In this document: piece by piece, positions 20,620-60,947 of the stretch
Layout: each line of letters begins with the position of its first letter
Position numbering within the stretch: the stretch's first letter is position 1
Assembly (NCBI RefSeq): GCF_029581195.1
Contig: NZ_CP120737.1
Span: 2,829,001-2,893,000 of the forward strand
Length of the DNA stretch: 64,000 nt
Source of the DNA: Solwaraspora sp. WMMD791
GTDB lineage: Bacteria > Actinomycetota > Actinomycetes > Mycobacteriales > Micromonosporaceae
Reading direction: 5' to 3'
Made by a program: the position numbers and the translations under genes
The notes under the pieces: generated by a model
What the model was told of the DNA's origin: nothing
Seen by the model: the letters and a program-made list of their open reading frames with translations, nothing else
The model's database searches: none

Positions 20620-22824
20620 ATGACTGACTTCGACCACCACTCCGCCACGTGCAACGCCGACCCGGTCGGCTACTACCGGACGTACCGGGAAAAATGCCCG
20701 GTCGGGAGGACCACCGCGCACGGCGGCTTCGTCTACACCACCCGGTACGCCGACGTGGTCCGCGTCGCCCGCGACGACGACACCTTCTCCTCCGCCCGGG
20801 CCACCGCCGGCGGCGACGGCACCGCCATCGTCATACCCCGGGGACCCGGCCTGGAGCAGTACCCGATCGAACTGGACCCGCCGGCCGCCACCGGCTACCG
20901 GGACCTGATCAACCCGCTGCTCACCCAGGACGCGGTGGCGAAACTCGCCCCGATGATCGCCCGGCACACCACCCGGATCATCGACGCCTTCATCACCGAA
21001 GGCTCCGTCGACTTCGTCCGCGACCTGACCAACCCGCTGCCGGCCGCCGTCACCCTGGACTGGCTCGGCTTCCCCGAGTCGGACTGGGCCAAGCTGGCCA
21101 AGCCGATCCACGACATCTTCGCCGCTCTGCCCGGCAGCGACCGCGCCATCCGGGGCGCGCAAGGGCTGGCGTACCTGGACGAACGGATCCGGGACCTGAT
21201 CCGCGACCGCCGCGCCGAACCCGCCGACGACGCGGTCAGCTACCTGGCGGCCCAGCGACGCGCCGACGGTGAACCGTTCAGCGTCGACGAACTCGTCTCG
21301 GTGATCGGGCTGCTGGTCGCCGGCGGCGTCGACACCACCACGTCGCTGACCGGGTCCACCCTGGTGCACCTGAGCCGTCACCCCGAGCAGCGCCAGCGGC
21401 TCATCGACACCCCGGACCTGCTCGACAGCGCCACCGAGGAGTTCCTGCGGGTCTTCGCCCCGTCGCAGTCGATGGCCCGCACGGCCCGTGCCGACGCGGA
21501 GGTCGGCGGCTGCCCGGTCAGCGCCGGTGAGCGGGTCCTGATCCCCTGGGTCGCCGCCAACCACGACCCGGCGGTCTTCCCCGACCCGGAACAGGTCCGC
21601 CTCGACCGCGACGCCACCCGCCACCTCAGCTTCGGCATCGGCAGCCACCGCTGCGCCGGCGCGCACCTGGCCCGGCTGATGTTCCGCGAGATGATCACCC
21701 AGGTGCTGACCCGGCTGCCGGACTACCAGGTCGTCGACGACGGTCTCGTCGGCTACCCCACCAAGGGGAACCAGACCGGCTGGGACGCCATCCCGGCCGT
21801 GTTCACCCCCGGCCGCCGCGCCGCCGACGCGGCGGCCGGAGGTGCCCCGGTGGCCACCCGCCCCGGCGGGGACCGGGATCTGGTCGTCGAGGCGGTCGCC
21901 CGGGCCGCCGACGAGGTGCTGGAGGTACGGCTGGCCGCCGCCGACGGCGCACCGTTGCCGACCTGGGCACCCGGTGCCCACCTGGAGGTCCGGCTGCCGT
22001 CCGGTCGACTCCGGCAGTACTCGCTCTGCGGTGACCCGGCCGAGACCGGGCACTACCGCATCGGCGTGCTGCGCGAGACCGCCGGCCGGGGCGGCTCCGT
22101 CGAGCTGCACACCGTCGCCACCGCCGGCGCGACGCTGACGGTACGGGGGCCACGTAACCACTTCCCGCTGGTCGACGCGGACGCGTACCTCTTCCTGGCC
22201 GGCGGCATCGGGATCACCCCGATCCTGGCCATGGTCCGCGAAGCCGTCCGGCGCGGTACGCCGTACCAGGTCGTCTACGGCGGCCGCAGCCGCGCCTCGA
22301 TGGCCTTCGCCGACGAGCTCGCCGCCCTCGCTGGCGACCGGGCCGTCCTGCTACCGCAGGACGAGGCCGGACTGCCCGATCTGGCCGCGCTGATCGGTGG
22401 CGTCGGCGACGGCACCGCCGTCTACTGCTGCGGCCCCGGCGCGATGATCAACGCGGTGGAGCAGGTGTGCGCCGACGCCGGACGTAGTGCGCAGCTGCAC
22501 GTGGAACGCTTCGCCGCCGGCGACGACCTGGAGGTGCCGTTCGACCCGGCTGCCAACACCGAGTTCGACGTGCACCTGGCCCGTACCGGCGTCACCCTGC
22601 GGGTGCCGAAGGACAAGCGGATGATCGAGGTGCTGCGCGAGGCGGTGCCCGGCCTGACCTACGACTGTGAGAAGGGGTACTGCGGCGCGTGCGAGACGCG
22701 GGTGCTGGCCGGTACGCCGGAGCACCGCGACTCGCTGCTCACCGCCGACGAGCGGGCCGCTGGCCGCAGCATGATGATCTGCGTCGGCCGGTGCAGCTCC
22801 GACCGCCTGGTGCTCGATCTCTGA
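20620..22824 (+). CDS. Self-sufficient cytochrome P450 fused to phthalate-dioxygenase-type reductase
   Basis: A 734-residue fusion. Residues 1-400 are a P450: I-helix AGGVDTTTS near 234, ExxR in EEFLR near 274, and the heme loop FGIGSHRCAG with Cys345 as thiolate ligand. Residues about 410-734 are the reductase: flavin motif RQYSLCGDP, NAD(P)H motif GGIGITPIL and a C-terminal plant-type [2Fe-2S] domain with Cys683, 688, 691 and 721. This is the CYP116B/RhF-like layout, which needs only NAD(P)H and oxygen. Relatives carry out O-, N- or S-dealkylation and hydroxylation. Single gene with its own promoter and terminator. The substrate is unknown, but the regulon suggests dealkylation of an imported heterocycle. 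Confidence 0.93.
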   Translation: MTDFDHHSATCNADPVGYYRTYREKCPVGRTTAHGGFVYTTRYADVVRVARDDDTFSSARATAGGDGTAIVIPRGPGLEQYPIELDPPAATGYRDLINPLLTQDAVAKLAPMIARHTTRIIDAFITEGSVDFVRDLTNPLPAAVTLDWLGFPESDWAKLAKPIHDIFAALPGSDRAIRGAQGLAYLDERIRDLIRDRRAEPADDAVSYLAAQRRADGEPFSVDELVSVIGLLVAGGVDTTTSLTGSTLVHLSRHPEQRQRLIDTPDLLDSATEEFLRVFAPSQSMARTARADAEVGGCPVSAGERVLIPWVAANHDPAVFPDPEQVRLDRDATRHLSFGIGSHRCAGAHLARLMFREMITQVLTRLPDYQVVDDGLVGYPTKGNQTGWDAIPAVFTPGRRAADAAAGGAPVATRPGGDRDLVVEAVARAADEVLEVRLAAADGAPLPTWAPGAHLEVRLPSGRLRQYSLCGDPAETGHYRIGVLRETAGRGGSVELHTVATAGATLTVRGPRNHFPLVDADAYLFLAGGIGITPILAMVREAVRRGTPYQVVYGGRSRASMAFADELAALAGDRAVLLPQDEAGLPDLAALIGGVGDGTAVYCCGPGAMINAVEQVCADAGRSAQLHVERFAAGDDLEVPFDPAANTEFDVHLARTGVTLRVPKDKRMIEVLREAVPGLTYDCEKGYCGACETRVLAGTPEHRDSLLTADERAAGRSMMICVGRCSSDRLVLDL

Positions 22825-43713: not shown

Positions 43714-44469
43714 ATGCCAGTCAGCTCGACGGAAACGACCAGCAGTGCCCTCGTCGACGCCACCGCCGCCGCCATCCGCGCAAAGATCATGTCTGGCGAG
43801 ATCCCGATCGGTGCCCAGCTGCGTCAGGCGGAGCTGGCCAAGCTGCTCGGCGTCAGCCGCACCCCGGTCCGCGAGGCGCTGCGACAGCTGCAGACCGGTG
43901 GGCTGATCGAGGTGGTGCCGCACCGGGGTGCGGTGGTGCGGGTGCCGGCGCCCTGGGAGGTCCGCGAGGCCTACGAGGTCCGCGCCGAGCTCGAGGCGCT
44001 GGCCTGCGAGCGGGCGGTCAGCCGGATCACCGACGACGTCCTCGACGAGCTGCGGGCGGCCAACTCGCTGCTGCGTCGCACCGAGCAGGCGGCCCGGGGC
44101 AACATCCCGCAACGGCGCGTCGAGGACGACCCGGGGGTCGCCCGCGCCCGGGTGGCCCTGGCGACGTCGACCAACGCCGCGAACGACCGGTTCCACACCC
44201 TGATCCACCAGGTGGCCGGCAACGACTGGCTGGCCCGGGTGATCAAGGAGATCAACGAGGCGTTCCCGCGTAACGTCTCCGCGCTGGTGCTGCAGGACAA
44301 CCCCCGGCACCGCGACGACAACTTCCACGAGCACGAGCGGATCATCGCGGCGCTGACCGAAGAGGACGGTGACCGCGCCCGACGCGAGATGCAGGCCCAT
44401 GTGATCAGCGCCGGTGAGCAGTTGGCTCGCTGGTACGAGCGGCGGTCGGCGACGGTGTTCCGGGGGTGA
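43714..44469 (+). CDS. GntR-family transcriptional regulator (FadR/FCD type)
   Basis: A 251-residue regulator. The wHTH occupies residues 15-75 with AELAKLLGVSRTPVREALRQLQTGGLIEV. The C-terminal FCD-type ligand domain follows (FHTLIHQVAGNDWLARVI, HRDDNFHEHERIIAAL), whose His and Asp residues usually hold a metal and bind small acids. The ATG follows AGGGGCACCGGGC. It is divergent from the copper amine oxidase and overlaps, tail to tail, the aminotransferase/oxidase fusion by 65 bases. It is the obvious candidate to bind TTGGATCCAA at all three promoters (inference). Confidence 0.94.
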   Translation: MPVSSTETTSSALVDATAAAIRAKIMSGEIPIGAQLRQAELAKLLGVSRTPVREALRQLQTGGLIEVVPHRGAVVRVPAPWEVREAYEVRAELEALACERAVSRITDDVLDELRAANSLLRRTEQAARGNIPQRRVEDDPGVARARVALATSTNAANDRFHTLIHQVAGNDWLARVIKEINEAFPRNVSALVLQDNPRHRDDNFHEHERIIAALTEEDGDRARREMQAHVISAGEQLARWYERRSATVFRG

Positions 44470-46939
44470 CCGGGCCGGGGCGGTGCGGGTCGCCGGGCAC
44501 GATCCCGGCCACGCCCATCGCCGCCGGGGCGAGGAAGTCCAGATCCGGCCGGGGCACACCGGTGACCAGGTCGGCCAGGGCCGTACCGATCGCCGGGCCG
44601 AACTTGAACCCGTGTCCGGAGCAGGCCGCCGCCAGCAGGACCTGCGGATGCGCCGGCAGCGCCCCGACCGCGAACCGGTTGCCCGGGGCCATCGTGTAGC
44701 GGCAGGCCACCTCGGCGGTGACCGGGCCGTCGGCGGCCGGCAGGAACCGGCGCGCGACGGTGAGCAGCGCGTCGCGTTCGGCGGCGGTGACCGGGCCGGG
44801 CGGCCGGTCAAGGTCGTCGACGGGCCCGTGGTCGAAGCCGACCTTGACCGTGTCCGGGCCGAACGCCGGGATGCCGTAGAGCAGCCCGACGCCGGGGACC
44901 TCCACCGAGAAGGGGCCGAGCGCCGGCGGGGCCAGCAGCGCCGGGGTCGACGAGCCGATGTGGATGTTGACGATTCGCACGACGGAGAGTTGGTCGGCGA
45001 GATCCGGCACCAGATCGGTGGTCCACGGGCCGGCGCAGATCACCAGCCGGTCGGCGAGCAGGTCGCCGTCGTCGGTGCACACCCGGACCCCGGCACCGTC
45101 GGGGCTCCAGCCGGTGACGGCGCAGCCGTCGCGGCGGTCCACCCCGGCGGCGGCACCGAGCGCGGCCAGCGCCGTCATCGACGCCGCCGCGTCGATGACA
45201 CCCGCCGCCGGGTCGTGGACGGCGACCATGTCGGTACCGAGGACCAGGCCGGGCAGGATTCCGGCGGCCTGGTTGGCGTCGACCAGCGTGCACCCCGGGC
45301 CCCGCAGGGTGCCGCTGGACCGGGCCGGCCGGGCGTAGAGCCCACCGACGGTGGTGATCAGCCGGCGACCGGCGGCCTGTTCCAGCTCGTGCCAGCCGGT
45401 GTACGCCCGCTGCACCAGGTCGTCCCAGACCGGCGACGGGTAGGCGCGCCGGATCATCCGGGTCTGCCCGTGCGAGGAGCCGTCGGTGTGGTCGGCCGGG
45501 TGCCGGTCGAGCTGCACCACCCGGGCCCCCCGGGCGGCCAGCGACCAGGCCGCGCTGCGGCCGTGGATGCCGGCGCCGACCACCACCACGTCGGCGCGCC
45601 GGTCGGTACCGGTGACCAGGGCGGGGGCGGCACCGGTAGCGAGGGCGCCGGCGCCGGTGGGCGCAGCGACGACCGGCGGCGGCGCCGGTTCGGGCGGCGT
45701 CGCCTGCCCGGTGGCGGGCGGGACCGGTCGGGCCAGCTGGGCGAGCAGCGCGTCGACGTCGCGGTCGTCGTTGTAGACGTGCACCGAGGCGCGGACCACG
45801 GCCGGCAGGCCGCGTCGACCCAGGTCCCACTGCCCGTGGCTGGCCGGCACGGCGACCAGGTGCAGGCCGGCGGCCCGCAGGGTACGGACCGTCCGCGCCG
45901 GTTCCTCGCCGTCGCGGACGAACGTGACGATGCCGCCGCCGGCCGCCGGCGGGTCGACCACCCGTACCCCGGCGAGTCCGGCCAGGCCGGCGCGCAACCG
46001 GGCAGCCAAACCGCTGACGTACGTGGAGATCGCGTCGACGCCGAGGGCGAGCGCCTCGGTGAGGGCGGCACCCAGACCGAGTCGCAACGCGTGCGACGCT
46101 TCCCAGGTCTCGTAGCGTCGCGCGCCGGGCAGCAGGTCGTACTCCTCGTCGCTGGTCCACCGGGCACCCCGCACGTCCGGGGTCAGTGGGCGGGCCCGCT
46201 CGTGCAACGCCGGGTCGAGGTAGAGCAGCCCGGTGCCGCGCGGACCCCGCAGGAACTTGCGGCCGGTGGCGACCACGATGTCGGCCCGCATCGCCCGTAC
46301 GTCGACCGGCAGCTGACCCACCGACTGGGTCGCGTCGACCAGCAGCGGCACCCCCGCGGCGGCGGACAGGGCGCCGACCTGTGCGACGGGCTCGATCAAC
46401 GCCGACGAGGTCGGTACGTGGGCCACCGTGACCAGCGCCGCCGGTCGGCGCAGCGCCTGCTCCAGCTGGTGCAGGTCGACACCGCCGGAGTCGTCGGTGG
46501 GCAGGACCTCGACGACGATGCCCCGGGTACGGCGCAGTTCGAGCAGATGCAGCGCCGAGCTGACGTAGCTGGACGCCGAGGCGAGGATCCGGTCCCCGGC
46601 CTGCAGCCGTAGCGCGTCGATCGCCCGGTGCCAGGCGACGGTGGCGCTCTCCACCAGGGCGATGTCGGCGGCGGAGGCACCGATGAGGTCACCGACGAGC
46701 TGGTACACCTGGGCGGTCCGCTCGGCGGCGGCCTCGGCGGCCTCGTAGCCGCCGAGGCGGGACTCCAGCCGCAGGTGGGCGATGACCGTGTCGAGCACGG
46801 TGAGGCTGGGCAGGGCGGCACCGGCGGAGTTGAGGTGGTGGGCCAGGGCCGCGCCGGGGGTGGCGGCGCGCAGGGCGGCGACGTCCAGGGCGGAACGAAC
46901 GCCGATCTGGGATGCGGTGTCTGTCAAAGTGGATCCCAT
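44405..46939 (-). CDS. Class V aminotransferase-sarcosine oxidase fusion protein
   Basis: An 844-residue two-enzyme fusion. Residues 1-405 are a fold-type I aminotransferase of class V (EgtE/isopenicillin-epimerase branch): Asp202 in LVDATQS and the PLP lysine Lys228 in ATGRKFLRGPRGTG. A Pro/Ala linker (405-445) leads to residues 446-818, a monomeric-sarcosine-oxidase-like flavoenzyme: VVVVGAGIHGRSAAW, the likely covalent-FAD Cys746 in ACRYTMAP and CSGHGFKFGP. Both active sites look intact. The flavin part would oxidise a secondary or N-methyl amine and the PLP part could remove or cleave the product. The C-terminus overlaps gntR by 65 bases. Last gene of the Rieske operon, 59 bases after the ALDH. 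Confidence 0.9.
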   Translation of the reverse strand: MGSTLTDTASQIGVRSALDVAALRAATPGAALAHHLNSAGAALPSLTVLDTVIAHLRLESRLGGYEAAEAAAERTAQVYQLVGDLIGASAADIALVESATVAWHRAIDALRLQAGDRILASASSYVSSALHLLELRRTRGIVVEVLPTDDSGGVDLHQLEQALRRPAALVTVAHVPTSSALIEPVAQVGALSAAAGVPLLVDATQSVGQLPVDVRAMRADIVVATGRKFLRGPRGTGLLYLDPALHERARPLTPDVRGARWTSDEEYDLLPGARRYETWEASHALRLGLGAALTEALALGVDAISTYVSGLAARLRAGLAGLAGVRVVDPPAAGGGIVTFVRDGEEPARTVRTLRAAGLHLVAVPASHGQWDLGRRGLPAVVRASVHVYNDDRDVDALLAQLARPVPPATGQATPPEPAPPPVVAAPTGAGALATGAAPALVTGTDRRADVVVVGAGIHGRSAAWSLAARGARVVQLDRHPADHTDGSSHGQTRMIRRAYPSPVWDDLVQRAYTGWHELEQAAGRRLITTVGGLYARPARSSGTLRGPGCTLVDANQAAGILPGLVLGTDMVAVHDPAAGVIDAAASMTALAALGAAAGVDRRDGCAVTGWSPDGAGVRVCTDDGDLLADRLVICAGPWTTDLVPDLADQLSVVRIVNIHIGSSTPALLAPPALGPFSVEVPGVGLLYGIPAFGPDTVKVGFDHGPVDDLDRPPGPVTAAERDALLTVARRFLPAADGPVTAEVACRYTMAPGNRFAVGALPAHPQVLLAAACSGHGFKFGPAIGTALADLVTGVPRPDLDFLAPAAMGVAGIVPGDPHRPGPVTPGTPSPTAARTSEPTAHRR

Positions 46940-51376: not shown

Positions 51377-51412
51377 CGCACCCCTCCCAGCTAGGCATCC
51401 GATCCGACATGC

Positions 51413-51424
51413 ATTGGATCCAAT
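51413..51424. promoter_or_regulatory. GntR-type operator upstream of the Rieske operon
   Basis: ATTGGATCCAAT is a perfect 12-base palindrome 36 bases before the Rieske start codon. It matches the copies at 41298 and 43552. No clear -10 box could be placed at normal spacing. Confidence 0.62.
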
Positions 51425-51755
51425 CCTGGCACAGATGTGGGCAGTGCGGAAGGTGCAGCATCCCTTCGATCCAGGGCCCACCACGCACCCTCGCGACCTT
51501 CCACCAGTCGACCACGACCAGGCGGCCGGCGGCGGTGCGACCACTCGGCAACCGCCTGAGACTCCGGCCGGCCCGCCGGTCGGAGTCCGTTCACAGGCCC
51601 GAAACAGGCATCACGCCGGGGAGCCGTCGCGAACCATCCGAGTTCCCGGAAAATGCGACAAAAAGAAGGTCGACCTGACGCCGGACCGACCCAATTCTGA
51701 TCCATTGAACCGCAGTCGTCGATAAAACTTGAACATCGAGGTAGATCTTTTGGTA

Positions 51756-51784
51756 TTGCCGGCCGTACAGCGCGCTGCTAGCCT
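51756..51784 (+). promoter_or_regulatory. Predicted promoter of the polyketide cluster
   Basis: TTGCCG (51756-51761) and TAGCCT (51779-51784) are 17 bases apart, giving an RNA leader of about 85 bases before the first gene. The rest of the 450-base gap 51425-51874 has no reading frame I trust; it is clearly less GC-rich from about 51,600 on, unlike the regions on either side. Confidence 0.42.
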
Positions 51785-51874
51785 GATCCATGGGTCGGGC
51801 AGGGGTAGCTCAAAAAGCATGGATCCCCGGCATAGGTCAAGTCAGTCACTGCGGCCCGACAGCAAAGGTTGGCT

Positions 51875-53032
51875 GTGCGCACGCTACTACTCTTCGATGG
51901 CCTGGGAAGCACCCATGAGGGTCTCGTTCCGGAACTGCGCAGGATGTACGCAAGCCCGGAGAATGCGACCTTCTTTCAAAGCTTCCTCGATACCGTGGAC
52001 AACGTTTCCGATTATCTCGGTACGACGGCATCCGCCGATCGACTAAGTTTCCGTGCCGTGCTGGAACAGCGCCGTCCCGGACAAGGCGAACCGCCGGTGG
52101 ATTCGGTCGCCGCCGGATTGTGCGTGTACGCCTACCAGACCTGTCACCTGCAACCGACCGCGCGCCACGCCGACGGCGCGGTCGCAGCGCTGGGCCACAG
52201 CATCGGCATGCTCGCGGCGGTCATCGCCGGCCTGCGACTGCGCAGGATGGACGACTTCATCGAGACCGTGACCGCCTTTCTACGGTTGATGGCGGTCAGC
52301 CTGGCCCGAGCCCAGGAGCTGGTCGCCACGGCGAACCCGGAGAAGAGTGCGGTCGACCGATACCGGGCGATGGTCCACCGGGGCGCGGACCCCGGGCCCA
52401 TGGCGGCGCTGTCCGGCCTGCCCCGCCACGAGCTGGCCGAGATGGTCGACGAGTTCACTCGAAACGGCGGCTCTCTTTCGATGAGTTTGGCAAACTCTCC
52501 GCGCTCCCATGTCCTGAGCGGCCCGCCCACCGAACTCCTTGAATTCTATCTCCAGCACGCGGCGACCTTCGAGCGGGCCGGCGCCATCTGGACGTTCCTC
52601 AGCAACACCATCCCATTCCACAGCCGACATCTGGCATCGACCGTGGACCGGGTCGGCCAGGACCGCCGGTTCATCGGCAAGCTTCCCGGCGGGGGGCAAC
52701 TTCAGCTGGCGGTGTACGCCACCGACGTGCCCCGCAACCTGCAGAGCTCATCCGACTTCGTGGACGAGTTTCTCCAGCAGGTCTTCCTGCATCCGATCGA
52801 TTGGGAAGCGGTGACGGGCCACGCTGTCGCCGATGCCGCGATCGACCGGATCGTGGACTACGGACCCGGGGCGGCAGCTCGGCGATTCACCAAGGAATGC
52901 TTGGGCACAGCCGCCCGAAGTGTGCAGTTCGCACCGATTCGACCATCCGTCGCGTCTCGGGCACCAGGAGGCCACCATGCGATGTCTACTCTTTCCCGGC
53001 CAGGGCGTCCAACGCCGAGGAATGGGCGCTGA
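51875..53032 (+). CDS. Stand-alone acyltransferase resembling starter-unit ACP transacylases
   Basis: A 385-residue AT-fold protein. The nucleophile is Ser109 in LGHSIGM and the partner His249 in IPFHSRHL. The phrase LANSPRSHVLSGPP around residue 206 is characteristic of fungal SAT domains and FAS beta-type ATs, not of FabD or modular AT domains. It probably loads a starter acyl group or edits the ACP. The GTG start is chosen for AAAGG six bases before it; TTG at 51869 is an alternative. Its last 56 bases overlap the next gene. Codon use is less GC-biased than in neighbouring genes, a hint of transfer. Confidence 0.78.
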   Translation: MRTLLLFDGLGSTHEGLVPELRRMYASPENATFFQSFLDTVDNVSDYLGTTASADRLSFRAVLEQRRPGQGEPPVDSVAAGLCVYAYQTCHLQPTARHADGAVAALGHSIGMLAAVIAGLRLRRMDDFIETVTAFLRLMAVSLARAQELVATANPEKSAVDRYRAMVHRGADPGPMAALSGLPRHELAEMVDEFTRNGGSLSMSLANSPRSHVLSGPPTELLEFYLQHAATFERAGAIWTFLSNTIPFHSRHLASTVDRVGQDRRFIGKLPGGGQLQLAVYATDVPRNLQSSSDFVDEFLQQVFLHPIDWEAVTGHAVADAAIDRIVDYGPGAAARRFTKECLGTAARSVQFAPIRPSVASRAPGGHHAMSTLSRPGRPTPRNGR

Positions 53033-53813
53033 GCTGTTCGCCCAGTTCCCGGAGACCACCGCCCTGACGGACGCGATTCTCGGTTACTCGATCGAAGAGC
53101 TGTGCACGGCTGACCCGGATCGTAGGCTCCGGGACACCCGGTACGCCCAGCCGGCCGTCTTCGTCGTCAACGCGCTCATGGGGATGCGGCAGATCGCAGA
53201 CGACACCGACGGCTACCGGTTCTTCGCCGGGCACAGCCTCGGCGAGTACAACGCACTCGTCGCCGCAGGGGTGCTCGACTTCCCGACCGCGCTACGAGTC
53301 GTCGCCCATCGCGGCGAGTTGATGGCCCGCATCACCGGTGGCGGAATGTCGGCGGTCCAGGGCGTACCGGCGGCGTTCGTCCGACGCACCCTCCAGGAGA
53401 CCGGTCTCGCCAGGGTGCACATCGCCAACTACAACGCCGACACCCAGACGACGATCGCCGGCGAACGGACCGAGGTGACCGTCGCCGCGAAGGCGATCAG
53501 CGCGCTCCCCGGCGCCCGGGTCGTCCCGATCAACGTCAGCGGACCGTTCCACACTCCGCTGATGGCCCCGGTGGAGCCGGCACTGCGTGCCGTCCTGGCC
53601 GACTGCGTCTTCGGCACCGCGACCGCAACGGTCGTCTCGAGCGTCACCGGCGAGGTCTTCGACCCGCAGGTCGGCGCCGACCTGCTGGCCCGCCAGGTCG
53701 GCTCCCCCGTGCAATGGGTACGGGCGGTCACCACCCTGCGGGCGTTGGGAGTCACCAGGTTCGACGAAGTCAACGGCAGCACCTTGAGTGCGCTGGTGAG
53801 CCGGATCCGCTGA
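52977..53813 (+). CDS. Malonyl-CoA:ACP acyltransferase, trans-acting
   Basis: A 278-residue FabD-like enzyme. LLFPGQGVQRRGMG opens the fold; Ser87 in GHSLGEY is the nucleophile, Arg112 in AHRGELM is the residue that holds the malonyl carboxylate, and His192 is in SGPFHTPLM. All point to malonyl specificity. ATG with AGGAGGCCACC. It should load the ACP of the adjacent AT-less polyketide synthase in trans. Confidence 0.92.
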   Translation: MRCLLFPGQGVQRRGMGAELFAQFPETTALTDAILGYSIEELCTADPDRRLRDTRYAQPAVFVVNALMGMRQIADDTDGYRFFAGHSLGEYNALVAAGVLDFPTALRVVAHRGELMARITGGGMSAVQGVPAAFVRRTLQETGLARVHIANYNADTQTTIAGERTEVTVAAKAISALPGARVVPINVSGPFHTPLMAPVEPALRAVLADCVFGTATATVVSSVTGEVFDPQVGADLLARQVGSPVQWVRAVTTLRALGVTRFDEVNGSTLSALVSRIR

Positions 53814-53826
53814 AGGGATTGAACGG

Positions 53827-56800
53827 ATGAGCATTGCCATCGTCGGCGCCTCGGTCAACCTGCCCGGAGTGGAGGGTCTGGACGACCTCTGGCGGGTCGT
53901 CAGCACCGGTACGAGCCTGACCAGGCCTTTTCCGCAGCACCGTCGGGAGACGTTGAGCGAGTACATCCACTACCTGCGGGCCACCACGGTCGAGCCGGTG
54001 GACGACGACAGCCTCGACTTCCACAACGGCTGCTATCTCGACGCGGTCGACGCGTTCGATTACGCGGCGTTCGGGATGACACCACGGCAGGCTGCGCTGA
54101 CCGACCCGCACCACCGCATGGTTCTTCGCGCGATGTTCCTCGCCCTGGAGGACGCCGGGTACTCGGCCGACCGGCTGCGGGGCAGCCGAACCGGGGTGTT
54201 CGTCGGCTTCGCGACGAACCCCGGGTCGACCTACATGGACTACATTTCCCGGGTCGAGCCCTCCCTGAGCCAGCAGGCGATCACCGGCAACATCCCGGCG
54301 ATGCTCGCCAACCGGCTGTCCCACCTGCTCGACCTGCGTGGCCCGAGCCTTGTCGTGGACACCGCCTGCTCGGCGACCCTGGTCGCGGTGCACCAGGCGA
54401 AGAACGCCCTGCTGGTCGGCGACTGCGACATGGCGGTGGTCGGTGGAGCCCGGATCGTCTTCGCCCCGGTCAAGCACCCACACTCGGCGATCGGCATCGA
54501 GTCGTCCGACGGCGTCACCCGCACCTTCGACGAAGCCGCCGACGGCACCGGATTCGGGGAAGGCTCGGGGGCGGTCGTCCTCAAACGAACCGAGCAGGCG
54601 CTCGCCGACGGCGACGAGATCTACGGGATCATCAAGGGCAGCGCGGTCAACCACGACGGCCACACCGACGGCATCACCAGCCCGAGTGCCCAGGCACAGG
54701 CGGAGCTGCTCCTCGCGGCCTGGGCCAACGCCGGCATCGACCCACGGACCATCGGCTATTTCGAGGCGCACGGCACCGCCACCCGGGTCGGTGATCCGAT
54801 CGAGCACGAGGGGATGAAGCGGGCCTTCGCCCGACACACCACCGACCGCGCCTTCTGCGCCGTCGGCACGGTCAAGGCGAACGTGGGGCACCTGTTCGAA
54901 GGCTCCGGAGTGATCGGTCTACTCAAGGCCGTGGCGGTGCTGCGGCACCGGCAACTGCCGCCGCAGGCCAACTTCGTCAACCCCAATCCGCAGCTCGACT
55001 TCGCCTCGGGCCCGTTCTTCGTGCCCACGAGCCTGCAACCCTGGGAGTCGTCCGGGCACCCCCGGCGCTGCGGCGTCAGCGCATTCGGCCTCGGCGGCAC
55101 CAACGCCCACGTCGTCGTGGAGGAGTACGTCGCACCACCGCGCGAGCGCGGCCCGGCCGGACCGTACCTGTTCACGCTCAGCGCGGCCACGATCCACTCG
55201 CTCACCGGGCTGCTGCGCAGCTACCTGCGGTTCATCGACGACGGCGGTCTGGTCGGCGTCGACATCGGCGACGTCTGCCACACCACTCAGGTCTCGCGGT
55301 CGGCGCACCGGTACCGGATCGCGCTGGCCGTGACCGACGCCGACGACATCCGCCGAGGCATCGCCGAGATCCTCGCCGACCGCCGACCGTCGATCACCGG
55401 TGCGCTCGCCGACACCGCGCAGGCGTACCTACGCGGCGAGCCGGTCGATTGGCGGACGCTGTCGGCGGGCCGCACGCACCGCATCGTCCGGCTGCCCCAC
55501 TACGTCTTCGACGAAACGACCGCCTGGCTGGACTTCCCGCAGGACTGGCGCCAGACGATGTCCCTGGAGCGGGCCACCACGCGGCATCCGGTCACCCACG
55601 ACGTAGCGCTGCGGCCGGTGCCGGTGCCGCAGCCGGCCCCCACCGGCACCGGCACGGTCCTCGCCCTGGTCGACCCGTCGACCGACGCCGAGGCGCTGCT
55701 GGCCGCCGCGTTGTCCGACGACAGCCGGATCATCCGGCTCGGCGAACCGGTCGCCCCGGACGGTCCGACGTTCGCCGCCGACAGCCCCGCCTCGTACGAG
55801 CACCTCGTCCGGCTCGCCGACGAACACGGGGTCACCCATCTCGTGTACGCGCTGGCGTTCGAGTCGACGCCGGCGGCCGACATCGAAGAGGTCGAACGCC
55901 GGTCCGCAAAGAACCTGCACGGGCTGTTCCACCTGTCGAAGGCGTTGATGGCGGCCGGCGCCAAACTCGACCTCATCGTGCTCACCCGCACCGCCGTCAG
56001 CGCGGACGAGGGTGACGTCACGGCGGTCACCGACAACGCGGCGCTGGTCGGCTTCGGCAAGGTCCTCGTCCGCGAATACCCGTACGTCCAGATCAAACAC
56101 GTCGACGTCGACATGGCCGTACCGGCCGGCGCGGTCCGCGCCGAGATCTTCGGCGACGGGTACGGGCTGTCCGTGCTGCGCGGCGAGCAGCGGTTGCGGG
56201 AGGTCTTCGTCGAGGTCGACGACATCGAACTCACCACCGCCGACCCCGGCCCCCGGCCGTACCTGCGGTCCGGCGGCACGTACCTGATCACCGGCGGCAC
56301 TGGTGCCCTCGGCCTCGCCGTCGCCCGTGACTTCGCCACCGCGCAGCCGGACATCACGGTCGTGCTGCTCAGCCGGTCCGGGCTACCGCCACGCGAGCAG
56401 TGGGACGAGCTGCTGGCGGCGGCGGCCGACCGTGCCGTGACGACCCGGATCCAGACGGTACGCGACATCGAGTCACTGGGTGCGAGGGTGCTCGCGATGG
56501 CGGTCGACGCCGGGGACAGCAAGGCGCTCGCCGAGGCGGTGGCGCAGCTGCGCGCCGACCACGGCCGGATCGACGGCATCGTGCACGCGGCCGGGCTCCC
56601 CGGCGGCAGCACCGTCATGTTCCGCCAGCTCGACGAGTTCGACGCCGTCGTACGCGCCAAACTGCACTCCGCCTTCGTGCTGGAGGAGTCGACCCGGAGC
56701 GACCCGCCGGACTTCATCGCCCACTTCTCGTCGGTCGCGTCGGTGTTTCCCGCGCCCGGGCAGGCCGACTACGCGGCGGCCAACTACTACCTCGACAACC

Positions 56801-57423
56801 TCGCCCGGTCGCGGGCGGGTGGCCGCTGTCACGTGCTCGCGGTGGACTGGGTGGCCTGGAAGGAGATCGGCATGGCCGTGGACTACGGCACCAACGGGGA
56901 CACCATGTTCAAGGCGCTGCCGACCGCCGTCGGACTGGCCGTGCTCGACGCGGGTCTGCGCTCGCAGCGGTCCCGGCTGTTCGCCGGCGAACTCCACTAC
57001 GGCGGCGAGCTCATCCACCTGCTGCGCTCGTACGACGTCACGCTCTCCGACGACATCGAGGCGACCGTGCACCAGCAGATGCAGGCGTTGGAGGAGCGGC
57101 TCGCCAAGGCCACCGACAAGATCCGTACGACGATCGAGGCGGTGACGGTACAGCTCGACGGCCGGCCCGACGGGACGTACACCGACGTCGAACTGTCCGT
57201 GGCGAGGTGCCTGGCGCTCGCGTTCGGCTACGACCGGCTCGACGTACAGGCCGACTTCTTCGACCTGGGCGGCGACTCGCTGATGGCGACGACGGTGGCC
57301 AACCACATCGCGGTCTACCACGGGGTGTCGTACGACGTCGCGGACCTGCTCGCGGACCGGACCACCGCCGAGATCGCGTACCACATCGAGGACCTGCAGG
57401 ACTTCGCGGCGAGTTCGATGTGA
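53827..57423 (+). CDS. AT-less polyketide synthase (KS-KR-ACP)
   Basis: A 1198-residue type I polyketide synthase. KS: residues 1-435, Cys181 (DTACSA), His315 (EAHGTAT), His355 (KANVGHL). A linker (435-575) ending in RIVRLPHYVFDETTAWL is the flanking segment left where an AT would be. KR: structural half about 600-800, catalytic half 812-1010 with GGTGALG, Ser968/969 and Tyr982 (YAAANYY), so a beta-hydroxy group is expected. ACP: about 1115-1195, phosphopantetheine site Ser1151 in LGGDSLM. No DH, ER, MT or TE. One module plus two free ATs suggests a short or iteratively built hydroxyacyl chain. Confidence 0.92.
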   Translation: MSIAIVGASVNLPGVEGLDDLWRVVSTGTSLTRPFPQHRRETLSEYIHYLRATTVEPVDDDSLDFHNGCYLDAVDAFDYAAFGMTPRQAALTDPHHRMVLRAMFLALEDAGYSADRLRGSRTGVFVGFATNPGSTYMDYISRVEPSLSQQAITGNIPAMLANRLSHLLDLRGPSLVVDTACSATLVAVHQAKNALLVGDCDMAVVGGARIVFAPVKHPHSAIGIESSDGVTRTFDEAADGTGFGEGSGAVVLKRTEQALADGDEIYGIIKGSAVNHDGHTDGITSPSAQAQAELLLAAWANAGIDPRTIGYFEAHGTATRVGDPIEHEGMKRAFARHTTDRAFCAVGTVKANVGHLFEGSGVIGLLKAVAVLRHRQLPPQANFVNPNPQLDFASGPFFVPTSLQPWESSGHPRRCGVSAFGLGGTNAHVVVEEYVAPPRERGPAGPYLFTLSAATIHSLTGLLRSYLRFIDDGGLVGVDIGDVCHTTQVSRSAHRYRIALAVTDADDIRRGIAEILADRRPSITGALADTAQAYLRGEPVDWRTLSAGRTHRIVRLPHYVFDETTAWLDFPQDWRQTMSLERATTRHPVTHDVALRPVPVPQPAPTGTGTVLALVDPSTDAEALLAAALSDDSRIIRLGEPVAPDGPTFAADSPASYEHLVRLADEHGVTHLVYALAFESTPAADIEEVERRSAKNLHGLFHLSKALMAAGAKLDLIVLTRTAVSADEGDVTAVTDNAALVGFGKVLVREYPYVQIKHVDVDMAVPAGAVRAEIFGDGYGLSVLRGEQRLREVFVEVDDIELTTADPGPRPYLRSGGTYLITGGTGALGLAVARDFATAQPDITVVLLSRSGLPPREQWDELLAAAADRAVTTRIQTVRDIESLGARVLAMAVDAGDSKALAEAVAQLRADHGRIDGIVHAAGLPGGSTVMFRQLDEFDAVVRAKLHSAFVLEESTRSDPPDFIAHFSSVASVFPAPGQADYAAANYYLDNLARSRAGGRCHVLAVDWVAWKEIGMAVDYGTNGDTMFKALPTAVGLAVLDAGLRSQRSRLFAGELHYGGELIHLLRSYDVTLSDDIEATVHQQMQALEERLAKATDKIRTTIEAVTVQLDGRPDGTYTDVELSVARCLALAFGYDRLDVQADFFDLGGDSLMATTVANHIAVYHGVSYDVADLLADRTTAEIAYHIEDLQDFAASSM

Positions 57424-57448
57424 TCGCGACCCGGGAGCTGAGGACGTC

Positions 57449-58819
57449 ATGACCGACATGACCCGCGGGCCGGCCCTCCGGCAGATCGTCGGTTTCGCCC
57501 TGCCGCTGACCGCGGCGAGTCTGTTCATGCAGACCTATCTGCTGGTCGACGGTATCGTCGTCGGCCGCTACGTGGGCGTCGACGGGCTCGCCGCGGTCGG
57601 GGCGAGTGGCCCGCTGTTCTACCTGCTGAACGCGATGTTCATCGGGCTCGGTACCGCGTTCACCATCCGGCTGGCGCATCTGCGCGGCGGCCGGCAGGAC
57701 GAGCAACGACGCGATGTGGTGGTGGCGTTGGCCACGGTGACCGTCGGCTGGACGATCGGATCCATCGTGCTGGTCACCGTGCTGGCCAGGCCGGTCCTGG
57801 CGTTGATGGGGATCACCGGGGCACTGGCTGAGCAGTGTGCCCACTTCATCGGGATGCTCTCGATCGGGTTTCCCGGCATCTTCGGTTCGGCGGCGGTCAG
57901 CGCCTACCTGCGTGGTCTGGGCAACTCGCGGGCGGCGATGTGGGTGCAGGCCATCGGCAACGTGGTCAACATCGGGTTGGCCTGGCTGTTCGTCGGTGGG
58001 CTGGGGCTCGGTGTCGGCGGTGCCGCGCTGGCGACGGCGGTGTCCGCCACCGTCGCGGCGGTGGTCGGCGTCGTCGCCTCGGGCCGGCTCTACCCGCTGC
58101 CGGCGGGCCGGCCCACCCCGGACGCCGTACGCCGTGAGCTGGTCGACGCCACCCGCCTCGGCTTTCCGCTGGCGACGCAGCACATCATCCTGGCCCTCGG
58201 CATCATGGTGCTGGTCTGGATCATCGAACGGTACGGCGAGGCGGTGATGGCCAGCTTCACCATCGTCTCGCGGATCGAAGCGTTCACCGCGATCCTGTTC
58301 CTGTCCTTCTCCGGTGCGATGACCACGTTCGCGGCGCAGAACCTCGGTGCGGGCGACACCGGCCGGGCGCGACGGGCACTGCTGCAGACACTCGGACTCA
58401 CCGTCGGTCTGACCGTACTGTTCTCCGCCGTGGTCCTGGCCGCGCACCGGCCGATCGTCGCGGTCTTCACCGACGACCCGGCGGCCCGCGAGATCGCCGA
58501 ACGGTACCTGTTGATCATCTATCCGTTCTTCGCGCTCTACACCGTGATGGTGGTGCTGCACGGCTACCTCAACGGCGCCCGCCGGACCACGGTGCCGCTG
58601 ATCTGCACGATTCTCGCTTTCGGCCTGGTGCAGTTGCCCTTCGCGTACCTGCTCAGTCGACCGTTCGGGGTCCAGGCGGTGATGTGGGCCGTGGTGGTGA
58701 GTTGGACCACCGGGCTGACGTACTCGTTGTTCTGCCTGCGACACGTCCTGCTGCCGCCGCGCCGCACCTCGGCCGGTGACACCATTCCCACCCCCGTCGA
58801 GGTGCGAGGATCATCATGA
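57449..58819 (+). CDS. MATE-family multidrug/metabolite exporter
   Basis: A 456-residue membrane protein with about 12 hydrophobic segments in two halves. Typical features are LPLTAASLFMQTYLLVDGIVVGRYVG at the N-terminus, SAYLRGLGNSRAAMWVQAIGNVVNI in the middle and AAQNLGAGDTGRARRAL in the second half. It uses Na+ or H+ to expel small molecules. Position between synthase and condensation protein suggests it exports the product and gives self-protection. GAGG precedes the ATG; the stop overlaps the next start by 4 bases. Confidence 0.93.
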   Translation: MTDMTRGPALRQIVGFALPLTAASLFMQTYLLVDGIVVGRYVGVDGLAAVGASGPLFYLLNAMFIGLGTAFTIRLAHLRGGRQDEQRRDVVVALATVTVGWTIGSIVLVTVLARPVLALMGITGALAEQCAHFIGMLSIGFPGIFGSAAVSAYLRGLGNSRAAMWVQAIGNVVNIGLAWLFVGGLGLGVGGAALATAVSATVAAVVGVVASGRLYPLPAGRPTPDAVRRELVDATRLGFPLATQHIILALGIMVLVWIIERYGEAVMASFTIVSRIEAFTAILFLSFSGAMTTFAAQNLGAGDTGRARRALLQTLGLTVGLTVLFSAVVLAAHRPIVAVFTDDPAAREIAERYLLIIYPFFALYTVMVVLHGYLNGARRTTVPLICTILAFGLVQLPFAYLLSRPFGVQAVMWAVVVSWTTGLTYSLFCLRHVLLPPRRTSAGDTIPTPVEVRGSS

Positions 58820-60240
58820 TCACTGCTTACACGACCGACGTCGAGTTCCACAGCGGACGCACCCGTAGCGCACCGCTGACCTGGGGTCAGGAAATGATCT
58901 GGGACCTGATCCGCGATCGCGACGACACCCGGACGTATGCGGTGCTCACCCGGTGGATGCCGATCCCGCTGCTGTTGAGCGTGGGCGACGTGCTGGAGAG
59001 CCTCGGCGAACTGCTCCGCCGCCACGAAGCGCTCCGCACGATGTACCACCCGACGGCCACCGGCGACGGCGTCCAGGAGGTCCTCGGCTCAGGGACGCTG
59101 CCGGTCGAGATGTTCGACCGGCCGGCCGACGATCCGACGGATTACACCAGCATCATCACGGACTGCCTGGTACGCGCCTCCGAGGCCGGATTCGACCACG
59201 AGAAGGAACTCCCGATCCGGTTCTCGGTCATCCTGCAGGACGGGATTCCGATCCTGCTGGCCTTCGCCGTCTCCCACCTGTCCGCCGACTTCACCAGCGC
59301 CGAGCTGCTGGTCGCCGAGCTCGGCGCGATGCTGCAGGCCCGCGCGGACGGTCGAGGGTGGCCACCGCCCCGGCAGGCCCGGCAGCCCGCCGACCTGGCA
59401 GCGATGGAGGCACGGCCCGAGGGACAGCTGCGCAACGTCGAGGCGGCCCGGTTCATTCGCCAGCAACTCGCCCGCGCCCACCCGGACATGCTGCCCGCAC
59501 GGGCCACACCGGCCACTCCCCGGTTCTTTCGCGGGCAGTTGGAGTCGTCCGCCGTCGCCGTGGCCGTCGGTCCGGCCGCCCGCCGCTACCGGACGAGCAC
59601 CTCAGTGCTGCTGCTGGCGGTCACCAGCGCGCTGATGCGCTGTGTGACCCGCGCACGGGCCTGTCCGATCGACCTGATGCTGAGCAATCGCGCCGATCCG
59701 GCGCTCGCCGGCACGGTGTGCAATCTGAGCCAGGGCATCCTGACCGTCATCGACCTGACCCCGGACTCGTTCGCCGGGCTCGTCGCGCGCTGCGCGGAGA
59801 TCACGGCGGAGGCGAGAAAGTACGGGTGGCACCGCAAGCGGGTCGTCCAGGGCATCCTTGACACCGCCGGAGCCGATCGGGGCTGCCAGTTCAACGACAT
59901 CTGGTCGCAGCTGCCCGGTCGGCCGAGCCGGCCGTCCGCGACCGTGACCGAGTTGCGGGCGATGACCGGGTCCACCTCGTTCTCCTGGCCGGAGCAGGCA
60001 CCGGAGAAGGGCAAGGACGTGTTCATGGGCGTCCGGGGCACCGCCGAACGGATGCACCTGTCGCTGTTCGCCGACACCGCGCTGCTGCCGCCCGGCGACA
60101 TCCGGGCCTTCCTCGACACGTTCGAACGGACCGCCATCGAGCTGGCCTACGCCGACGTCCCGCTGGAGCAGATCGCCGGCTGGTTCGCCGAGGCCAGCGC
60201 CCGGTACGCCCACCTCAACGACGGTGCTGACCCCCGGTAG
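58816..60240 (+). CDS. Free-standing condensation-domain (NRPS C / PapA-like) protein
   Basis: A 474-residue protein of the CoA-dependent acyltransferase/condensation fold. Core motifs: PLTWGQEMIWDL (C1), RRHEALRTMY (C2) and the active-site SHLSADFT near residues 153-160 (C3; HHxxxDG with the first His changed to Ser, the catalytic His154 and structural Asp158 kept). Later LSNRADPALAGTVCNLSQ matches C5. No adenylation or carrier domain. It could transfer the ACP-bound chain to a free alcohol or amine and so act as the release enzyme of the cluster. Last gene of the operon. Confidence 0.85.
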   Translation: MITAYTTDVEFHSGRTRSAPLTWGQEMIWDLIRDRDDTRTYAVLTRWMPIPLLLSVGDVLESLGELLRRHEALRTMYHPTATGDGVQEVLGSGTLPVEMFDRPADDPTDYTSIITDCLVRASEAGFDHEKELPIRFSVILQDGIPILLAFAVSHLSADFTSAELLVAELGAMLQARADGRGWPPPRQARQPADLAAMEARPEGQLRNVEAARFIRQQLARAHPDMLPARATPATPRFFRGQLESSAVAVAVGPAARRYRTSTSVLLLAVTSALMRCVTRARACPIDLMLSNRADPALAGTVCNLSQGILTVIDLTPDSFAGLVARCAEITAEARKYGWHRKRVVQGILDTAGADRGCQFNDIWSQLPGRPSRPSATVTELRAMTGSTSFSWPEQAPEKGKDVFMGVRGTAERMHLSLFADTALLPPGDIRAFLDTFERTAIELAYADVPLEQIAGWFAEASARYAHLNDGADPR

Positions 60241-60254
60241 CCGTCGGAAGCGAC

Positions 60255-60947
60255 TCAGTCGAACCAGGGACCGCCCACGAAGGCCTCGGCGTCGGCGGGC
60301 AGCCGGACGTCCTGCCCACCGGCCAGCCGCCGACACAGGTCCATCAACCGGGAATGGTCCGGACCCCGGCCCGCGCCGCCCGATTCGCCGCCGTCGGGAT
60401 GCCACCGCGCGTACCAGCCCGCACCACGCAGCAGCACCAGCGGGCCGGCGACGACCTGACCCACCCACCTGTCGATCGCCTCGAGCAGGTCGTCCGAGCC
60501 GTGGTCGCAGGCGTCGCAGCCGCAGTCCGGGAGCATGCCGACCGCCGTCCCGGGCCGCTCGACGTCGACGTGCAGCACCGGAAGTGACCCCTCGGCCCGG
60601 TCGAGGGCCCGGTCGAGTGGGGCGTCGCGCTCCAACAGCAGCAGCGGCAGGGTGCCGGAGCGGGCCGGGGTGATCCGCGCCCCACGGTCGAACGTACCGA
60701 AGTGTCCCTCGACGTCACGCGACCCCGACCCGAGCACTTCGACGGTCACGCCGGGCCGGTCACCGAGCACGTCGGCCCACACCCGGGCACGGGCGTGCAC
60801 GATCGCATACCGGCCCGGGTCGGTGACCCGCGAATACTCCGCCTCGGGTGGCGAGTCCATCCCGACGTGCGGATTCGGCCAGGACGGCAGGCCGAGCCGG
60901 TCGTACGCGACCGCCACCCGCGCCCGCAGCTCGTCGAGGTTCGTCAC
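60255..60947 (-). CDS. Hypothetical protein, possibly DUF6226 family
   Basis: A 230-residue protein with no catalytic motif I can assign. Conserved-looking parts are LGLPSWPNPHVGMDSPPEAEYSRVTDP, LPDCGCDACD (Cys pattern) and a C-terminal AEAFVGGPWFD. It resembles small uncharacterised actinobacterial proteins that I recall as DUF6226, but I am not certain. Start GTG at 60947 is taken because it lies two bases after the upstream membrane-protein stop; a longer frame would overlap that gene. Convergent with the condensation gene, 14 bases apart, no terminator seen. Confidence 0.6.
   Translation of the reverse strand: MTNLDELRARVAVAYDRLGLPSWPNPHVGMDSPPEAEYSRVTDPGRYAIVHARARVWADVLGDRPGVTVEVLGSGSRDVEGHFGTFDRGARITPARSGTLPLLLLERDAPLDRALDRAEGSLPVLHVDVERPGTAVGMLPDCGCDACDHGSDDLLEAIDRWVGQVVAGPLVLLRGAGWYARWHPDGGESGGAGRGPDHSRLMDLCRRLAGGQDVRLPADAEAFVGGPWFD

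Follow-up and report, generated by a model that had tools for sequence, protein, structure and literature searches.

A recurrent five-gene polyketide cassette with an apparently exchangeable release enzyme in a Solwaraspora genome, a candidate source of exported beta-hydroxyacyl conjugates

The subject of this study is a cluster of five genes in a 64-kb stretch of DNA (the window, 2829001-2893000 of the 6.93-Mb genome of Solwaraspora sp. WMMD791), within which all positions are given unless another locus is named. The genes encode two free-standing acyltransferases (AT1 and AT2), a polyketide synthase (PKS) with no acyltransferase (AT) domain of its own, a MATE exporter, and a free condensation-type acyltransferase (C enzyme). 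Judged from sequence, they represent a real, conserved, self-contained, and apparently uncharacterised cluster family in which known enzyme classes occur in a new combination with swappable ends. We rate as slightly better than an even prospect that the cluster is a self-contained trans-AT acyl-conjugate cassette making an exported beta-hydroxyacyl conjugate; read directly from the DNA are the gene set and its co-inheritance, the retention of catalytic residues, the signature of purifying selection, and the either/or presence of two kinds of release gene. The preliminary description of the window had recognized the cluster, the pair of starter-type and malonyl-type ATs, the AT-less single-module synthase without a thioesterase (TE), and the free condensation-type enzyme, all of which are upheld here; it had overlooked the exchangeable release slot and the decoration of the MATE protein in relatives.

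All five genes lie on the + strand: AT1 at 51875-53032 (GTG start, with an alternative TTG at 51869), AT2 at 52977-53813 (ATG start, with AGGAGG immediately upstream), the synthase at 53827-57423, the MATE exporter at 57449-58819, and the C enzyme at 58816-60240. AT1 and AT2 overlap by 56 bases and the MATE and C genes by 4 bases, while the gaps are 13 bases between AT2 and the synthase and 25 bases, the largest, between the synthase and MATE, in keeping with the compact same-strand polyketide cluster described previously. The start proposed for it, 51756, falls in the intergenic region, and its single promoter could not be confirmed, as no sigma-70-like site was found in 51400-60500 by a scan for one promoter type, a result of little weight in an actinomycete. 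In 21 other collinear loci, for which script-called gene starts were used, spacing ranges from -53 to 133 bases between AT1 and AT2, -13 to 15 between AT2 and the synthase, -4 to 25 between the synthase and MATE, and -13 to 34 between MATE and C; locus L058, outside this set, has a MATE-C gap of 344 bases.

The synthase (1198 residues) comprises a ketosynthase (KS, residues ~2-432), a post-KS linker to ~580, the structural half (~620-805) and the catalytic part (~806-1065) of a ketoreductase (KR), and an acyl carrier protein (ACP, ~1115-1190); Pfam and TIGRFAM assign these domains, with KS, KR, and PP-binding matches, and the Pfam scan gave no AT, dehydratase (DH), enoylreductase (ER), or TE domain; the lack of an integrated AT fits a synthase of trans-AT type. 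The catalytic residues are invariant in 32/32 synthases, including that of a Treponema-family genome, namely C181, H315, and H355 of the KS, S969, Y982, N986, and K945 of the KR, and S1151 of the ACP. The top single-KS match in PDB is PksL (346 bits), to which both the KS and the post-KS linker align and which we take to be a trans-AT synthase; chains of the DEBS cis-AT type follow closely at 332 and 326 bits, all of these being PDB match scores. An apparent kinship to the 7zma synthase was discarded, because its 643 bits are the sum of two KS domains (316 + 323). AT2 matches Acyl_transf_1 (E=3.4e-27) and the FabD model TIGR00128 (E=1.6e-69; 234.6 bits, under the model cutoff of 260.9), and its motifs GHSLGE, xR(A/G)xxM, and PFH are present in 30/30 AT2 rows, as in discrete malonyl-type ATs. 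The exporter matches MatE PF01554 in two stretches (E=4.7e-50), corresponding to the two halves of a full-length protein, and TIGR00797 (212.8 bits against a cutoff of 147.4). The C enzyme, a stand-alone open reading frame (ORF), matches Condensation PF00668 (E=2.6e-15; 56.5 bits against a cutoff of 30.6); the motif SHxxxD, in the window SHLSAD, is kept in 28/28 C-type proteins examined, and in PDB its profile (A2) matches condensation domains of nonribosomal peptide synthetases (NRPS), with 4znm seventh of 37 sequences at 2.3e-12. Elsewhere in the genome, four genes match the phosphopantetheinyl transferase family. A gene of this family also adjoins the Sanguibacter cassette (L038:5832-6440, - strand), the only locus at which one was looked for.

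The comparison of gene order in related genomes, put forward in the preliminary description as a check, showed that the five-gene unit recurs in many of them and is thus not confined to the window. The five genes are collinear in 32 of 44 distinct actinobacterial loci, window included; in two others (L037 and L038) a C-like gene is located elsewhere, and ten are without a C gene. This count derives from 45 locus rows compared by DNA, of which L067 and L119 are identical across 17 kb and were counted once; L026/L129 (98%) and L033/L064 (96%) are near-identical yet counted as separate genomes. A scan of genome contigs gave 21 loci, 19 of them actinobacterial with a whole synthase (Micromonospora, Kutzneria, Saccharothrix, Umezawaea, Actinokineospora, Sanguibacter, Actinoplanes, Streptomyces, and Kitasatospora) and the remaining two a partial Treponema match and a weak KR match; AT1, AT2, and MATE accompany the synthase in 19/19 and C is the fifth gene in 17/19. 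Every other gene family is limited to at most 6 of 31 neighbourhoods. Searches by family found AT1 in 15/300 genomes of the window's family (E <=1e-10), with AT2 and the synthase adjoining it in all 14 of the other genomes, and, in profile searches at 1e-40 with the seed genomes included, in 15/346 Umezawaea-family and 11/345 Kitasatospora-family genomes; in 13 of 14 genomes inspected among the 24 non-seed genomes of these two families, AT2, the synthase, and MATE lie behind AT1, and the fourteenth (L123) is a broken locus. Across the class the synthase is rare (4/394 genomes at 1e-150), and one of the four matches, G637, was dropped, having several KS stretches and the look of an ordinary multi-module PKS. 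A plasmid-borne origin was likewise set aside: a PLSDB protein search at 1e-100 returned four records, none covering at least 80% of the query, the best with 40% identity over 48%. All five genes are under purifying selection, with a ratio of nonsynonymous to synonymous substitution (dN/dS) of 0.10-0.32 over 15 gene comparisons (five genes, three relatives). Since the order recurs in 32/44 loci and dN/dS is this low, the cassette is not a chance arrangement.

The cassette comes and goes as a block. In the window's genus it is present in 3/7 genomes, and the Rieske oxygenase gene that is its left neighbour is present in 7/7. Against the cassette-free congener G034, homology ends at 51464 and restarts at 60251, and in that genome the flanks enclose 3.1 kb of other sequence; this defines a presence/absence unit of 51465..60250, without strand; two further cassette-free genomes show both flanks (the right one from 60964) and one the left flank only. 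The edges are not fixed, as cassette-bearing L058 has an extra 2.6 kb between left flank and cassette. The five genes travel together, given that pairwise identity matrices of their proteins correlate at 0.78-0.96 in 24 cassettes. Bacterial families are interleaved in the synthase tree, which was built quickly and has 8 unresolved forks and a number of long branches. Mean identity is lowest for AT1 (0.524) and C (0.527), the fastest evolving, and 0.71-0.74 for the other three; this divergence would fit a varying starter and acceptor, though relaxed constraint would account for it as well. Among the five genes, AT1 also diverges most at synonymous sites (0.60, 0.57, and 0.84 against L057, L058, and L059, respectively), and a codon-usage gene caller gives it low scores; a separate recombination history of AT1 is possible. 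The idea that the cassette belongs to the neighbouring amine-catabolic operon (Rieske oxygenase, glutamine-synthetase-like enzyme, aldehyde dehydrogenase (ALDH), and pyridoxal-phosphate/FAD protein) was rejected on the 7/7 and 3/7 distributions above; of 31 loci, only three (the window and two congeners) have such genes adjoining the cassette, and one ALDH match proved to be another gene of the window.

The gene that would release the chain differs among loci. In tblastn searches of the 44 loci, a C-type gene was found in 34 and a BtrH-like gene in 10, with both in none and neither in none; since every locus has one or the other and never both, the release enzyme appears exchangeable on the same type of synthase. 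L119, the duplicate of L067, is uncounted here, and for L037, L038, and L041 the top C match is their own sequence used as query, the C genes of L037 and L041 having first been found with the window's C and those of L037 and L038 by Pfam. The ten loci without C (L065, L066, L067, and L120-L126) all have another gene near AT1, of ~340 residues where intact, with a Cys, a His, and an Asp invariant in nine aligned rows (the duplicate L119 among them and L123 left out). L123, from the Kitasatospora family, is a broken cassette: several kb interrupt its BtrH-like gene, and the 20 kb fetched contain no synthase. The name BtrH-like meets several difficulties: BtrH_N was matched in one of five proteins scanned, that of L066, at 0.0063 and below the Pfam cutoff, with no match for L065, L067, and two further actinobacterial proteins; profile-profile comparison gave BtrH probabilities of 11% and 16% (P 0.003 and 0.0016); and no PDB match was obtained for the actinobacterial protein. 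These results point weakly to a distantly BtrH-like release protein.

The loci with the BtrH-like gene also differ in their exporters. In L124 (13987-16848) and L126 (3749-6487, - strand) MATE is fused to a PMT_2-type membrane glycosyltransferase according to Pfam, and in L125 likewise by homology; in L065 (14696-16756) the fusion partner is an FkbM methyltransferase, and a PMT_2-like gene lies upstream. L067 and L120-L122 have a gene for a GT4 glycosyltransferase behind MATE. Glycosyltransferases of the PMT_2 or GT4 kind thus accompany 8/10 BtrH-type loci vs 0/34 C-type loci, window included (tblastn, 1e-5). In the synthase tree, the BtrH-like members sampled for it (L065-L067) sit apart from the main C-type clade, so that few independent events underlie this difference. 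In L040 there is an FkbM-like match 6.7 kb beyond the cassette. A more distant version occurs in the Treponema-family genome G791, one of two matches among 195 genomes of that family, where a full-length KS-KR-ACP synthase with 39% identity and a MATE gene lie between a BtrH_N protein and an AMP-ligase. This BtrH_N protein exceeds the cutoff of PF14399 (2.5e-9) and falls under that of NF053550 DarH (8.7e-7); a C39-type ABC exporter and a protein reading as HlyD-like lie next to these genes, the whole locus being L056:3176-14029, and searches there for AT1 and AT2 gave no match. The window cassette is therefore one subtype of a wider family, given the exchangeable release slot and the glycosyl- or methyltransferase carried by MATE in some relatives. 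A broader proposal, which we put forward tentatively and hold to be somewhat less probable than not, is that of widespread, horizontally spread minimal conjugate cassettes with a fixed core of KS-KR-ACP and MATE (plus the extender AT in actinobacteria) and with swapped ends, the starter being loaded by either a FAS-I-type AT or an AMP-ligase and the chain released by an enzyme of condensation type or a BtrH-like one; they would make so far unseen beta-hydroxyacyl conjugates, some of them glycosylated during export by a transporter-glycosyltransferase fusion.

In the mechanism proposed for the window cassette, AT1 would load a starter acyl group, acetyl being the simplest guess, and AT2 would place malonyl on the single ACP; the KS would condense the two once or a few times, and the KR would reduce the product to a beta-hydroxyacyl-ACP. 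The free C enzyme would then hand the ACP-bound chain to an acceptor, a small soluble amine or alcohol, and so stand in for the absent TE, and MATE would export the conjugate. It is for the starter, the number of rounds, the acceptor, the type of bond, and the exported substrate that we infer beyond the genes themselves. MATE transporters often carry cations, and a basic acceptor would, as a guess, suit transport of this type.

AT1 has a whole-domain match to Pfam SAT PF16073 (E=1.1e-7; 32.2 bits against a cutoff of 22.8), and in PDB its profile (A4) matches the beta subunit of fatty acid synthase (FAS) at 5.9e-31 across ~330 residues, N-terminal part included, with FabD-like enzymes trailing (best 5.1e-14). 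The nucleophilic Ser and PFH are kept in 29/29 rows and the His of GHS in 27/29. The matched region of yeast FAS is presumably its acetyl transferase, in which we take Ile306 to stand in place of the malonyl-binding Arg; in the FAS alignment the AT1 residue opposite is S, T, G, A, I, or V in 29/29 rows and Arg in none. Because of the SAT match, the homology to the FAS beta AT ahead of FabD, and, in the FAS alignment, this position never being Arg, AT1 is most likely a starter transferase. Some observations tell against this role or against the release step proposed for C. When AT1 and AT2 are aligned with MAFFT, a gap is introduced and an Arg invariant in AT1 falls opposite the malonyl Arg of AT2, and AT1 may then be a second malonyl-type AT, the Arg argument being alignment-dependent; since the FAS AT likewise has Arg in the column of the invariant AT1 Arg, the FAS alignment is preferred. 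In the C enzyme, the first His of the HHxxxDG motif is Ser, and the Gly after the Asp is mostly substituted. Finally, loss of the malonyl Arg, if real in AT1, would also be typical of the proofreading acyl hydrolases of trans-AT systems, which are without it according to PMC11775670, and this keeps alive a reading of AT1 as such a hydrolase, with the starter coming from self-priming of the KS or from AT2. We consider it unlikely, as the match of AT1 to the FAS-I AT is full-length and Pfam SAT is matched besides, the usual substitute in hydrolases is Gln or His (PMC11775670) whereas AT1 has small or aliphatic residues, and a His that hydrolases often lose, the one preceding the nucleophilic Ser, is mostly retained.

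Other explanations differ on the product. Single modules served by a discrete AT can act iteratively, and since the sequence sets no limit of one round, the synthase could make a longer, polyhydroxylated chain that C would cyclise or esterify to a second chain. Against it, DH and ER domains are absent and no further processing gene is conserved, while chain length is not readable from sequence; we give this reading a minor share of the probability. A similar minor share falls to a product linked to the cell envelope or membrane, flipped by MATE and then glycosylated outside, in place of a diffusible metabolite. The MATE fusions and adjoining glycosyltransferase genes of the relatives would agree with it, but such enzymes are found at the BtrH-type loci and at none of the C-type loci, to which the window belongs. 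Quite improbable is that the cassette makes no product of its own and instead provides a different PKS or NRPS line with an acyl group. The genome does hold other PKS-like loci, and free C enzymes can act in trans; however, the cassette keeps its genes across widely differing genomic surroundings, none of its other neighbours being widely conserved, and has its own exporter.

Other features of the window lie outside the cassette. On the - strand, 26931-51418 is a probable amine-catabolic island with genes for an amidohydrolase, an FMN oxidoreductase, a gamma-glutamyltranspeptidase, an oligopeptide-type ABC transporter, a copper amine oxidase, an ALDH, a gamma-glutamylputrescine-synthetase-like enzyme, and the Rieske oxygenase. 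Within this range, the ORF at 44405-46939 (- strand) consists of two halves connected by a proline-rich linker, one an EgtE-like class V aminotransferase/lyase and the other an FAD protein (DAO, N-methyltryptophan-oxidase-like), and L059 has an ORF of similar length at the matching position. At 20620-22824 (+ strand), a P450 is fused to an NAD/2Fe-2S reductase module, the layout of a self-sufficient P450.

The unit of ~8.5 kb, found in several actinobacterial families and with a distant Treponema-family relative, is small enough to be cloned whole. Its either/or use of C-type and BtrH-like release enzymes offers a direct experimental system in which to study how a free acceptor receives a PKS chain. 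Whether modification is coupled to export is a question raised by the MATE-glycosyltransferase fusions of relatives. Among the literature matches listed, with MIBiG and antiSMASH outside the scope of the search, no characterised cluster has this gene set, or the same gene order with a known product, which agrees with the preliminary description. Parts of the cassette resemble known systems. Like trans-AT PKS modules such as PksL, it has a KS and post-KS linker without AT and a separate FabD-like AT; unlike them, it consists of one module, has no TE, and includes a free C enzyme as well as an AT of FAS-I type. The alignment of AT1 with the type I FAS beta AT extends over ~330 residues, and AT1 matches Pfam SAT, the family of the SAT of fungal PKSs, but it is free-standing in a bacterial PKS operon. 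With BtrH/DarH-type systems the link is the BtrH_N protein of the Treponema-family locus, a remote version of which may fill the release slot in the 10 actinobacterial loci; unlike these, the window has a C-type enzyme, and the actinobacterial version is under the Pfam cutoff or unmatched. The protein of 4znm ('C-domain type II peptide synthetase'), which we take to be SgcC5 of C-1027, is a free-standing C enzyme like that of the cassette, with low similarity; the donor of SgcC5 is an aminoacyl group on a peptidyl carrier protein, and its cluster is unrelated. In mycobacterial Pks/PapA systems, a condensation-superfamily acyltransferase also releases a PKS chain onto an acceptor; their cis-AT synthases, lipid products, and MmpL export differ from the cassette. 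The nearest characterised logic found for the cassette C enzyme is that of OaaC. In the fatty acid amide clusters represented by OaaA, OaaACP, and OaaC of Coprococcus eutactus, a free C domain joins an acyl-ACP to a free small amine, and the motif of such free C domains keeps its second His and its Asp, with variation at the residue that follows the Asp (PMC13142362). These clusters resemble the cassette in having a discrete acyl loader, an ACP, and a free C enzyme with a relaxed motif that retains the second His and Asp, SHxxxD in the cassette vs (D/H)HxxxDS in the Oaa type, the two being compared by description (PMC13142362). However, as PMC13142362 describes them, they use a ready-made fatty acid activated by adenylation, whereas the cassette has a PKS module with which it could build its own chain and a MATE protein that could export the conjugate.

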